Origin: Closterium sp. NIES-65 | Lineage: Eukaryota; Streptophyta; Zygnematophyceae; Desmidiales; Closteriaceae | Direction: 5' to 3' | Assembly (NCBI GenBank): GCA_948144175.1 | Contig: CANXME010000812.1 | Coordinates: 186,001 to 250,000, forward strand | Length of the DNA: 64,000 nucleotides | Shown here: positions 19,282-30,955 of the stretch, piece by piece | Layout: each line of letters opens with the position of its first letter | Position numbering within the stretch: position 1 is the first letter of the stretch | Position numbers and translations under genes: made by a program | The notes under the pieces: model-generated | What the model was told of the DNA's origin: nothing | What the model saw: only the letters and a program-made list of their open reading frames with translations | The model's database searches: none

Positions 19282-19888
19282 ATGCTACCCATCGTCTCCC
19301 ACTCCCGCATGATCGCACGCCAGCTCGTTCCTCTAAGAACCGTTCTCGAAGCGCGTCAAACATCCCTCACCTCTCATTCGCAATCCCATTTGATTGCTCG
19401 CCAGAGCATCTTCCCTCCTGTTACTCCTGTTACTCCTGTCGCTCCTAAAGCCATGCGTTTCCTGCTCGGAGCGCAGGTGTTACATCCTGATCAATGCTGC
19501 GCCCGCGCAGCGCATGTAGTGGTTAGTCCCTTGAAGGAGATTAATTCTCACATAGATCCTAGAGCCTTAGTCCAAAACTCTGTTTCGAATCGCGTTTTTC
19601 GAAGCAGCTGGGATAGAGGATACCAGTTCAGACAGATTTCCCGTAAATCACGAAAAGTTGTGCCACGTGGCACGGCTGCTAGTGAAATAACCCGAGCCGC
19701 TGCAAGATCCGCTATTAGTGAGGAGGCCCATGAGGCAGGCCCTGGAACGGTGACACGTCATCCCGACGTCAAACCACCCTTGGACACGTGTCAGGCGGTG
19801 GTTGGAGAGGGAGATTCGTCCGGTGGCGGGAAGATTCGGAAGCGGCGAGTGGCGCTTTGGGTGGGATACGTTGGGACGGAGTTCAAAG
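19282..19888 (+). CDS. Pseudouridine synthase exon 1
   Basis: Met at 19,282 is the first in-frame ATG. About 185 residues of low-similarity, Arg/Ser-rich sequence (possible transit peptide) precede [16 protein letters not shown], the first strand of the TruA fold. The donor is GTAAGG at 19,889. An alternative start further upstream cannot be excluded. Confidence 0.75.
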
Positions 19889-22800
19889 GTAAGGCTGGGG
19901 TTTTGGGGTTTGAGGTCCAAGAGGAAGAACCCAGAGAAAGGGTTTAGGGTTTGGGCTTACGAGAGGGCGACACCAAGTAATTTAGGTGTGGCGAAAGCGG
20001 CGGGTGGCTCTCTGGGTGGGATACGTTGGGACGGAGTTCAAATGTAGGCCCGGGGAGTAGGGTTAAAGAAGAGGTTAAAGGACTGTGAAGAGGCTGTGAG
20101 GCTGTCCGCCATTATATTACACCTGGTGTGAAGCAGAACTCGTTGCTGAGATGGAAAAAAAATCTGGGTGAAATACATTGGGACGGAGGTCATATGTAAG
20201 TGGGGATCTGTGTTTGGAAACCAGGGGAAAAGGGGGAGGGGGTGAGGGGAGGGGGTGGGGAAATTTTATCTGTTTGGGTGAGATACGTCAGAGGTACGGC
20301 TGGGATTCAAGGGTTAAGAGGGTTTTTAGCCGCAAGTGTTTGGACAGGGTGCGATATGATGGAGTTGAGGTATGGCGGGGTTCAAAGGCATTTGGAGCGG
20401 TTGGATGAAGTCAAACAAAGAGGAGGTTATGGCGGGGTGTGCCTTGGGATTTACAGCAGCAGCTGGGAATCTGAGTAACAGGGGACTTTTGAGGTGCCTC
20501 AAACGTTTGCCTGGGGGTTCACAGAAGAAGAAGCAGCAGCAGCAGCAGCAGCAGCAGCAGCAGCAGCTGGTGGTGGGGTTTGGGTGCGAGGGTACCACCG
20601 GGACTAAGGGTGAGTTGACTTCTGAACGTCACAAAGCCGACTCATAACCTTTCTACATTTTAAACGCTGACATTTTTCACACAGGTGCGAGCGGCGCAAA
20701 AGTAGGGAGGTTCAGAGGGGTTTGGCTGGGTCTGAGAGACATCCGTCCGTCCCTCTTGCTTCATTCCCGTCCTACCATCTTCATCCCACACGCTTATCCG
20801 AATCCCTCTGCTCCTCTCTCTCTATCCCCCCACAGGGCTGCAGATTCAGAGAGCAATCCCGGTGCCACTCCCTTGAGATGCCTTTGATGATAGTGAGAGT
20901 GACTATGATGACTGTGACAGTAACGGCGGCAACACTGCTCTTAACCACTGCCCTAACTTTCTTATCCTAACACCTGCTCCTCCCTCTCCCTTCGTCTCCC
21001 CACCACAGGCCTGCAGATTCAGCGAGCAATCCCGGTGCCGCTCCCCTCAGACGTCTGTGATAGTGACAGTAACGGCAACACTGCTCCTCTCCTATCCCAA
21101 CCTCCGCTGCTCTCCCTCCCCTCGGTCTCTCCTGCCACAGGCCTGCAGATTCAGAGAGCAAGCCCAGTGCCGCTCCCCTCAGACGCCTCTAATGAGAGCG
21201 TCTATGGGGACTGTGACAGTAACGGCAACACTGCTCCTAACCACTGCCCTGACTTCCTTATCCCAACCCCTGCTCCTCCCTCTCCCTTCTTTCTCCTCGC
21301 CACACAGGCCTGCAGATTCAGCGAGCAAGCCCGGTGCCTCTCCCTTCAGACGTCTCTGATGAGAGTGACTACAAGGACTGTGACAGTAGCGAAGGGGAAA
21401 CCAGCAGCAGCAGCAGCAGCAGCAGCAGCAGCAGCAGCAGCAGCAGCAGCAGCAGCAGCAGCAGCAGCAGCAGCAGCAGCAGCAGCAGCAGCAGCAGCAG
21501 CAGCAGCAGCAGCAGCAGCAGCAGCAGCAGCAGCAGCAGCAGCGGCAGCAGCAGCGGCAGCAGCAGCGGCAGCAGCGGCAGTGGCGGTAGCAGCGGCTCT
21601 TCCAGCACCCCCTCAACTGAATCCGTCCCAAGTGAGAGCTCCCTTCAGATTGCACGCCTCTGATGATAGTGACTGTGATACGAGGAGTCAAAGGGGATGT
21701 GTTGGCGAAATTCAGGAGTGCCTCTGATGATATGTTCTCATGATATCCACTTCACATGCCTATGCTTCACTGTGCAGCACTTAAAGAGGACTATGAGAGG
21801 GTCAGTAAGTAAAGCCAACCCTTCACCTCTTCCTCCCCTCTTTCTCCTATGAGAGGGTCAGTAACAAAGAGGACTCAAGAGGCAATTCTTCCGGCTCGTA
21901 TCGGCTTTCCCGCACTTCAAACCCAACACTGCGTCATGATATTTTTTAGGTGAAGTCGTAAAAGAGATACAGGCATACCCTCCCTTCTCATCCCACCACC
22001 TGGTGAAATGTTGGAGTCACCTTTGTGAATATCTGAAAAGTATAATGTCTCAAAAACGCATGCGCAAGTGATGCATCCCATCCCCCACCACCCATCGCCC
22101 ATTTTCTACCACCTTTCGCTGCTGCTCCTTTTCCCCTTATGCCACTGCTTCACTCACCCCTTCCAGCGGTGGAGGGTTATCTGGAGCAGGCTTTACTGGC
22201 GACGGGCATGATGCTTCCCCACCGCCCAACACCCCCCCCTTCCTCTGCCTAGCGCCTATCATTTCCCCATTCTTCCCCTCCCTGTCTGTCCATTCTACCA
22301 TTTCCCCATTCCTCCCCTCCCTGACCGTCCATTCCCCTCCCTTTTCTCTGTCCAGCGGTGGAGGGTTATCTGGAGCAGGCTTTACTGGCGGCGGGCATGA
22401 TACTTCCTAGCAACTTCGGGGATCTGTTCAAGATCGGGTGGAGCCGTAGCAGCAGGACGGACAAAGGGGTGAGTGGAGTGCGATGCAGTGCAGTGCGGTG
22501 CGGGGTGGTGCTGTGCATGCATAGATACTGTAATAGGTATGCTATCTGGCCAAGACGGACAAAGGGGTGAGTGGAGTTTGGTGCGGTGCAGTGCGGTGCA
22601 GTAGATAGTGTAACAGGTAAACCTAGCATTCTGGCCAAGATTGGGTGGAGCCGGAGTAGCAGGACGGACAAAGGGGCGAGTGCGGTGCAGCGAGACGAGA
22701 TGCGGTGAAGTGTGGTGCGGTGCGTTGCTGCTGGTAGTGTGCTGCAGTATAGTAGGTAGTGCAATAGGCAAACTCTGGCCAAGAATGGGAGGTGCAGGAA

Positions 22801-29932: not shown

Positions 29933-29939
29933 GGTCGCT

Positions 29940-30955
29940 GGAGGGTGGAAGGGGAGCTGTGGAGTGGAGTGGGTGGGAGGAGAATCTGCTGGGCTACCAG
30001 TGGGTGTGTGAGGAGGAGGAGAGGGAAGTGGTAGAGGGGCATACCAAGTGAAAGCAGGGCAGGGCTGACAGAGGGGCTACTGTGAGAGTAGAGGCATTCT
30101 GCCAGCAGAGAGTGCTGCCAACCATGCTGCAGTGCAGTGGGTGGACGGTGAGGGAGAGCCGTGGAGGGGGTGGGAGGAGTGTGTGGGAGAGCAGAGGCAC
30201 TCTCCCATCCCAAGGGCACAGACTGCCACCCATGCTGCAGTGCAGTGGGTGGATGCTGGGGAGGAACCGTGGAGGGGGTGGGAGGAGTGTGAGAGAGGCT
30301 GAGGCATTCTCCCAAGGGCACAGACTGCCAGCCATGCTGCAGTGGGTGGATTCTGGGGGGCAGCCGTGCAGCAGGTGGGAGGAGAATCTGCTGGGCTACC
30401 AGTGCGTGTGTGAGGAGGAGCGAGCAATAGTGGACGGGTTTATCAAGTGAAGGACTTTTGACAACTCTCATAAGCGACTCAGATTTAGCGAGTGGGTGTG
30501 TGAGGAGGAGTGAGCCATAGTGTTGCCAGCCATAGGAGGAGGTTTATCAAGTGAAGGAGGGGAGGGAAGACAGAGGTTCCTGAGAATGCTGCAGGTGGAG
30601 TGAGAGTGTGTAAGGAGGCGCGGGTGGGAGGAAAATCTGCTAGCCTAGAATCTCCTGGAGGGGGTTACTGAGGCTGCTGCAGGTGGACCGAGAGTGTGTA
30701 AGGAGGCGCGGTTGGGGAACCTTTTGGCATACCAGTGGGTATCTGAAGAGGGGGACAGAGCCGTGGTGGGGAGGAGGGGTTTACCAAGTGAAGGAGGGGA
30801 GGGAAGACAGGCGCGGGTGGGAGAGAGCCATGGTGGAGGGGTTTACCGGGTGGTAGCAGGGAGGCGCAGAGAGGGGGGTATTGACGCCATTGAAGGGTGG
30901 AGTGGAGTGGAGAGGGAATCTGTGTGGAGCAGTGGGGAGGAGAGGAGAAATTGAT
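29940..30955 (+). repeat. Array of 3'-end echoes after the pseudouridine synthase stop codon
   Basis: About seven or eight degenerate copies of the last ~110 bp of the gene follow in tandem: motifs [21 protein letters not shown] and MLQW recur at 29,960-30,055, 30,090-30,170, 30,200-30,290, 30,300-30,450, 30,485-30,560, 30,600-30,670, 30,700-30,790 and on to 30,950. Frames are broken. Confidence 0.82.

Follow-up and report, generated by a model that had tools for sequence, protein, structure and literature searches.

A 64-kb stretch of the genome of Closterium sp. NIES-65 (contig CANXME010000812.1, in an assembly of 874.08 Mb and 2400 contigs), referred to below as the window, was analyzed at positions 19,282-30,955. 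This region of ~12 kb is filled by one gene of seven exons, with GT-AG introns and a single open frame of 1,020 codons including the stop. Its product, searched as the protein without its low-complexity stretches, matched the tRNA pseudouridine synthase domain PF01416 (E=2e-10), and the gene is thus a predicted tRNA pseudouridine synthase of the TruA/PUS1 type. The exons of this gene are accompanied by partial copies of their own ends. We use the term echo for such a copy, i.e., part of an exon end plus the adjoining splice-site region, detected by self-BLAST of the region. The open frame and the family match suggest that the complete copy of each exon is the one that is spliced.

A placement rule was observed for all 19 nonredundant echo-exon pairs listed for this gene. 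The eight upstream echoes contained the 5' part of their exon, and the 11 downstream echoes contained the 3' part, five of these being copies of the exon 7 coding tail located after the stop. No listed echo covered a whole exon. Local self-matches accounted for 45% of the 7,591 intron bases of the gene, and matches overlapping an exon for 32%. An earlier note, made from the sequence alone, had described exon-end echoes and the absence of whole-exon duplicates in this region; both observations were confirmed, and the self-comparison of 19-31 kb that it proposed shows the copies described. Its copy numbers were reproduced upstream of exons 2, 3 and 4 (3, 1 and 1) and downstream of exons 3, 4, 5 and 6 (3, 3, 1 and 2, one exon 4 copy being a copy of a copy). 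Upstream of exon 6, where five to six had been counted, we found six (at 26289, at 26848 and the four units of a 135-bp array). The two copies proposed ahead of exon 5 are present together with a weak third (E=3e-4), and the single copy ahead of exon 7 is present but starts at exon nucleotide 11 and lacks an acceptor. Of at least three copies claimed downstream of exon 1, two were significant and the third was only weak. At least seven copies with a donor had been reported downstream of exon 7; at least five are present, but they carry the coding tail, the stop and 3' flank and no donor, because this exon is terminal and ends at the stop codon. The regularity that the note stressed holds for the listed pairs, with one short exception downstream of exon 2. 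Coordinates of all features are given in the table.

Table. Exons, echoes and repeats of the tRNA pseudouridine synthase gene (window positions).
Feature	Position	Strand	Basis or remark
Exon 1	19282-19888	+	gene model
Exon 1 3' part and donor region, echo	19992-20055	+	self-BLAST, 87.5%
Exon 1 3' part and donor region, second, older echo	20165-20218	+	self-BLAST, 77%
Exon 1 end, weak third echo	20273-20304	+	pieces with E=0.002 and 0.008
Intron 1 end, acceptor and exon 2 5' part, echo 1	20793-20925	+	self-BLAST
Exon 2 start, echo 2	20961-21067 (limits approximate)	+	self-BLAST
Exon 2 start, echo 3	21116-21224 (limits approximate)	+	self-BLAST
Exon 2	21308-21631	+	gene model; CAG/Ser tract 21402-21581
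Inner piece of exon 2 5' half, 3' of exon 2 (exception)	21639-21674	+	31 nt, E=1e-5
Acceptor and exon 3 5' part, echo	22162-22218	+	96.5%
39-bp pyrimidine-rich tandem repeat ahead of exon 3 acceptor	22256-22334	+	more units in second gene copy
Exon 3	22356-22468	+	gene model
Exon 3 end and donor, echo	22551-22599	+	self-BLAST
Exon 3 3' part, echo	22630-22675	+	self-BLAST
Exon 3 3' part and donor region, echo	22774-22845	+	self-BLAST
Acceptor and exon 4 5' part, echo	22939-23029	+	self-BLAST
Exon 4	23241-23410	+	gene model
Exon 4 3' part and donor, echo	23506-23585	+	91%
Exon 4 end and intron start, echo	23627-23736	+	self-BLAST
Partial copy of preceding exon 4 echo region (copy of a copy)	23735-23783	+	self-BLAST
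Exon 5 5' part, weak echo	23810-23859	+	E=3e-4
16-bp tandem array, about 110 copies, intron 4	23864-25617	+	
Acceptor and exon 5 5' part, echo F1	25629-25688	+	self-BLAST
Acceptor and exon 5 5' part, echo F2	25786-25887	+	self-BLAST
Exon 5	25947-26136	+	gene model
Exon 5 3' part and donor region, echo	26190-26247	+	90%
Exon 6 5' part, old echo	26289-26366	+	self-BLAST
Palindrome, intron 5	26494-26537	+	
18-bp tandem array, 17 copies, intron 5	26548-26857	+	
Acceptor and exon 6 5' part, old echo	26848-26976	+	self-BLAST
4 x 135 bp array	27050-27589	+	unit: exon 6 5' part, stop, intron end, acceptor
Exon 6	27594-28616	+	gene model; 1,023 nt; internal duplication 28025-28235 / 28112-28367
Exon 6 3' part and donor, echo	28658-28757 (limits approximate)	+	self-BLAST
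Exon 6 3' part and donor, second echo	28782-28884	+	self-BLAST
Exon 7 nt 11-78, echo without acceptor	29157-29224	+	self-BLAST
Exon 7, terminal	29300-29932	+	stop codon 29930-29932
Exon 7 coding tail, stop and 3' flank, four echoes, no donor	29964-30420	+	self-BLAST
Further degenerate copies of exon 7 tail and its flank	30491-30916	+	self-BLAST

Echoes were also found in other genes. The same genome was searched with the CCT/Cpn60 profile (PF00118), and 87 of 166 candidates were scored; 20 loci were fetched, of which 11, one per gene, were analyzed, the remaining nine being second copies. The 11 genes contained 45 core exons, defined as the parts matched by the hidden Markov model (HMM). At least one echo was present at 32 of these (26 upstream, 23 downstream, 17 both). 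After removal of redundancy, 84 raw pairs were reduced to 61, all of which followed the rule (31/31 upstream echoes from the 5' half, 30/30 downstream echoes from the 3' half). The wider scan with an orientation test that the earlier note had called for, carried out here as a family sample, was therefore in line with its expectation. The largest share of a core exon covered by any echo was 0.74. The start-to-start distance between echo and exon had a median of 169 bp and was at most 500 bp in 58 of 61 pairs, and alignments reached within 20 nt of the core end or beyond in 27 of 31 upstream and 25 of 30 downstream pairs. An extra plus-strand copy within the own 10-kb locus was detected for 31 of 45 core exons and a minus-strand copy for one. 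When the same exons were compared with loci of the other genes, which are paralogues, the corresponding numbers were 29/450 and 0/450; thus, exon copies in the own locus exceed chance.

In the one kinesin locus fetched, one of four core exons had echoes, namely two 3' parts downstream, bringing the rule to 82 of 82 listed pairs (19 in the window gene, 61 in CCT genes and two in kinesin). Among untallied HMM coordinates, class I tRNA synthetase hits 331-364 and 327-362 lay downstream of hits 223-373 at C1749 and C946, and kinesin hit 273-305 lay upstream of 273-327 at C1673, on the predicted side; by the same reading, most kinesin hits had no partial partner. In addition, kinesin exon pieces occurred in opposite-strand pairs ~10-90 bases apart at three places (C511:712945-713361, C1725:169179-169595 and C1052:556971-557362), two of which look like two copies of one place. 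Partial exon copies in this genome are therefore not always direct.

Splice signals were well preserved in the echoes. A splice-site alignment was available for CCT pairs passing an exon-match filter, which favors good exon matches (upstream, 25/31; downstream, 19/30); these retained AG at 21/25 acceptors and GT at 19/19 donors. Pyrimidine content ahead of AG was 0.804 in echoes and 0.806 at the exons' own acceptors, compared with 0.556 at random AG. Insertion of exon-only fragments is disfavored, since AG/GT and the pyrimidine tract travel with the echo. Agreement between echo and exon was 74-94% on the exon side and 0.27-0.52 from ~5 nt into the intron, where unrelated junctions gave 0.25-0.43. 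Over 50 nt of intron, mean identity was 0.665 at acceptors (27 of 31 pairs, with AG within 8 nt) versus an unrelated baseline of 0.647, and 0.641 at donors (26 of 30) versus 0.569; about 0.90 would be expected at 11% divergence. Clearly alignable flanks were present in a few pairs, mostly young units, including the 124-bp array of L015. As judged by eye, upstream echoes had no donor at their inner end, and downstream echoes had no consistent acceptor there. At exon 6 of the window gene, three of the array's four decoys match the real acceptor and its surroundings at all but 6-8 of 140 nt, so that acceptor strength, judged locally, would hardly suffice to distinguish them. Exon definition would be an obvious candidate for the choice of the full copy, though exon 6 is long.

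Differences between echoes and exons had a coding-like pattern. In the exon parts of the 61 CCT pairs we counted 332 synonymous and 199 missense differences and six stops, as well as 33 indel events, 27 of them frame-shifting. The synonymous fraction was 0.618 (0.576-0.656 in an exon bootstrap, 0.583-0.661 in a gene bootstrap, and 0.622 with one echo per exon). Simulation of echoes neutral from birth next to constrained exons gave 0.393-0.425. Its mutation rates were estimated by comparing near-identical gene copies, with CpG mutating roughly fourfold faster, and they rest on a cruder first copy-to-copy mapping in which L018 was mis-chained. CpG or transition bias was insufficient as a cause of the excess: raising the CpG rate two- or threefold and the transition rate twofold gave at most 0.444. 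Faster synonymous evolution of real exons also found no support: the 7,870 CCT core sites contained seven synonymous changes, which would be ~0.3% on an estimate of some 2,000 synonymous sites among them, versus 0.44% elsewhere. In the window gene, junction echoes differed from exons by 45 synonymous and 39 nonsynonymous changes plus two stops. Polarization of private changes where an exon has several echoes (class F, 30 synonymous, 28 nonsynonymous and one stop; class E, 12 and six) was indecisive because exon-branch changes enter both classes.

A different picture emerged between near-identical gene copies, for which CCT counts were taken from MAFFT alignments using ungapped echo pairs only. 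CCT echoes differed by 0 synonymous and 4 nonsynonymous changes, and CCT exons by 7 and 4; junction echoes of the window gene differed by 6 and 12. Many echoes seem to have once been functional exon ends, because their synonymous fraction is high and their intron flanks are near baseline, and the likeliest interpretation of these sequence counts is that echoes are dead now but diverged partly as working exon ends.

Comparison of gene copies revealed turnover of echoes. The second copy of the window gene (C2061, L009-L011) is ~96-99% identical in long matches and has nearly the same echoes. Samples in a study of the Closterium psl complex were haploid, according to the part of that report considered here (PMC10407611), and the two gene copies may therefore be recent duplicates rather than alleles; the same part describes many recent gene duplicates and copy-number variation. 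The exon 6 array, whose unit consists of acceptor, exon start and early stop, is four units long in the window but 10 units long in the second copy, and an array at L015 has about 11 units of 124 bp. Such units thus expand and contract in young arrays. Upstream of exon 4, two echoes of the second copy correspond to one fused echo in the window. Upstream of exon 5, the window has F1, F2 and then the exon behind a different acceptor, whereas in C2061 F1 is followed by the full exon, joined directly to what in the window is the F2 acceptor. The simplest reading is that recombination between F2 and the exon swapped the exon 5 acceptor in the lineage of the second copy, probably by deletion. In nine CCT gene pairs, aligned parts differed by 0.08-0.86%, and echo counts were equal in both copies at 33 of 36 matched exons (seven with zero in each). 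The unequal exons were in L014/L024 (probably owing to the overlap filter), L018/L028 (a 53-bp insertion) and L020/L030. Within exon 6 of the window gene, the internal duplication keeps the reading frame open, which suggests that duplications within a variable coding stretch are also tolerated.

Palindromic insertions with the core TTTTGAG(N4)CTCAAAA were observed in the window (13106, 14805 and 26507, versus 0 expected) and in L012, L014, L016, L017, L018 and L020. Several have direct repeats on either side (e.g., 30, 31, 23 and 22 bp), and five of 16 listed outside L012 have none. One palindrome with an exact 30-bp target duplication (L018:4543-4564) sits inside an echo, and L028 (near 4257-4350) has the clean empty site. 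In L012, 16 palindromes, most of them spaced 52 bp apart, form an array at positions 3618-4640 (gene orientation) in the span of a CCT/Cpn60 gene.

Taken together, we lean slightly toward a reading in which introns grow by local duplication across splice junctions with selection and by recombination between echo and exon, and in which many echoes first came from diverged gene versions. The duplicated unit would run from within an exon across its acceptor or donor into the intron. Selection would keep the copy joined to the whole exon, leaving the partial copy stranded on the intron side, and echoes would be spliced around, probably because the full copy alone is bounded by a splice site at each end, as exon definition would require. 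Echoes could also recombine with the exon, as the F2 acceptor serving exon 5 in the second copy appears to illustrate. Many may first have been functional exon ends in a diverged version of the gene, the versions being joined by recombination at the exon, presumably the stretch most alike in both. The placement rule follows from geometry, because a duplication across an acceptor leaves its partial copy upstream and one across a donor leaves it downstream; therefore, the rule is not by itself a sign of an exotic mechanism. The earlier note had explained the pattern by local duplications across splice junctions and filtering by selection; its core idea is supported, but it is insufficient for the synonymous excess and the poorly alignable flanks. 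Origin from diverged versions would gain plausibility if the host belongs to the Closterium psl complex, as a section of the study of that complex reports that strain NIES-4550 is of hybrid origin and that sequences of differing origin have recombined in it (PMC10407611, section 8). A related reading, which we regard as possible but tentative, is that echoes are scars of recombination between versions in hybrids. Exons, being most alike, would be the site of strand exchange, and exon-started repair would copy an exon end with some intron from the other version while the old end stays behind. Scarred introns would then recombine with themselves and return old acceptors to use (one such case was seen), so that working splice sites would be replaced repeatedly with the protein unchanged, and arrays of decoy acceptors could tune expression.

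Several other explanations were considered. Instead of arising at random and being filtered, duplications might be directed to the ends of exons or to DNA that is transcribed and spliced, through breaks at palindromes or purine/pyrimidine tracts. Local repeats covered 35-78% of nine CCT gene spans, whereas values of 0-25% prevailed in the flanks; the 6.5 kb adjoining the window gene (two intronless genes) showed no copies at distances up to 1.5 kb, and palindromic insertions with target duplications occur in introns. On the other hand, two CCT genes had low coverage (6% and 14%), three flanks had higher values (0.26, 0.41 and 0.99), and the first 1 kb past the stop of the window gene was 82% repeat. 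The random sample consisted of two short genome stretches, one without local repeats and the other with a minisatellite-like patch. As exons are conserved, exon-linked copies remain recognizable longer, and the contrast between gene and flank is therefore no proof of targeting, which we consider rather unlikely. Purely neutral tandem duplication, with each echo neutral from birth as in the earlier note's model, would account for the placement rule and the young arrays. It also agrees with the four pairs with intron-side identity of at least 0.80 (L012, one in L013 and two in L015), which total six synonymous and nine other differences, and with the post-stop echoes of the window gene, which differ from exon 7 by 26 synonymous and 47 nonsynonymous changes plus two stops. 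However, the observed synonymous fraction lies well above the simulated values, synonymous sites of CCT exons do not change faster than other sites between copies, and intron flanks are near the unrelated baseline. Neutral duplication is disfavored for the older echoes and, as a general explanation, appears unlikely.

Function of the echoes in place, as alternative exon ends or as regulatory decoy splice sites under selection, would fit their coding-like history, their intact acceptors and donors, and decoy-acceptor arrays that differ in number between copies. Against it stand the between-copy counts of CCT echoes and exons, the frame-shifting indels and stops, and the missing splice sites at the inner ends. 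The counts, which are small, and the missing inner sites disfavor an in-place coding function in particular; the window echoes point the same way but are weakened by the counts for exons of the same gene given below. We consider in-place function improbable. As for an assembly artifact, noisy long-read assemblies can misjoin repeats, but nothing here points that way: two separately assembled copies of the window gene have nearly the same echoes with many substitutions between them, and echo counts agree in most matched exons of the nine CCT pairs. This explanation is very improbable.

Several observations weigh against the favored combination of junction-spanning duplication and diverged-version origin. 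No second diverged version was detected among the 87 of 166 CCT candidates scored; most of these genes are represented by two near-identical copies, with one locus present three times and one listed once. Intron flanks retain a slight residual likeness, larger at donors. The counts that indicate no present constraint are small, and the cruder CCT mapping gave 10:12. The exons of the window gene differ by 9 synonymous and 13 nonsynonymous changes between copies; thus, this gene cannot tell constraint from its absence, and only the CCT contrast speaks. Echoes were absent from 13 of 45 CCT cores and three of four kinesin cores, and among CCT loci L021 had none and L022 few. A targeted search also detected, outside the list of 19 pairs, the one placement exception, a 31-nt piece of exon 2 at 21639-21674. 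Finally, exon-linked duplications are easier to detect, and the rarity of intergenic ones may be partly a detection effect.

The neighborhood of the window gene served as a control. The adjoining 11.8 kb, comprising two intronless genes and intergenic DNA, showed in self-BLAST only a direct 730-bp pair, an inverted 498-bp pair and one weak match between the genes. The intronless minus-strand open frames (31508-32350 and 35217-36740) are weakly similar (70% over 84 nt) and free of echoes. Repeats at 38274-42487 and 43805-62027, which include the inverted 498-bp and direct 730-bp pairs, break the similarity with the second locus copy. The two pairs are probably transposon parts, and copia-like polyprotein frames are presumably present among these repeats.

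If correct, the favored reading would make visible a process that drives both intron growth and the turnover of splice sites. The introns look partly built of scraps of neighboring exons, from which splicing would have to pick one whole copy. Such genes provide a natural test of exon definition, as real and decoy acceptors are equal in pyrimidine content and, at exon 6, have nearly the same sequence. They also carry a warning: in such genomes, gene prediction and copy-number estimates based on exons will encounter many false exon ends.

Local exon copies are known in other forms. In tandem exon duplication and mutually exclusive exons, neighboring exon copies are complete with splice sites, whereas echoes in CCT genes cover at most 0.74 of a core exon. 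Unlike introners or transposable elements, the 135-bp unit, the one unit searched genome-wide, matched only the window gene and its near-identical copy and was not present at unrelated loci. An open-access literature search returned no description of partial exon copies flanking exons genome-wide. The study of the Closterium psl complex, in the passages considered here, treats whole genes and contigs, and partial exon copies do not appear in those passages (PMC10407611). In the Rogers model, as described in PMC4974935, introns are gained by tandem duplication of an exonic segment containing AGGT. Local duplication touching exon sequence adds intron in both cases; however, existing introns lengthen here, and by our derivation the Rogers model reverses the placement, as its new intron starts with the start of the downstream exon. 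The reverse placement expected under that model (3' part upstream, 5' part downstream) was found in none of 61 CCT pairs.

The closest relative is the RdRp gene of potato (Ma, Lan and Niu, 2016; PMC4974935), where one tandem duplication spanning an intron-exon boundary gave rise to a new intron and to a copy that is expressed as an exon. As in potato, the direct tandem unit consists of intron end, acceptor and exon 5' part with inherited splicing signals; direct local copies of intron end, splice site and exon part were found here, the intron part being clear in few units. Whereas the upstream copy is expressed in potato, echoes are probably silent, as their stops and frameshifts argue against expression. 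In place of potato's single event, most CCT exons and all exons of the window gene carry copies on at least one side, in diverged series or arrays. Thus, the elementary event is known singly from potato, whereas here it has left its mark on the majority of CCT core exons and on all seven exons of the window gene.

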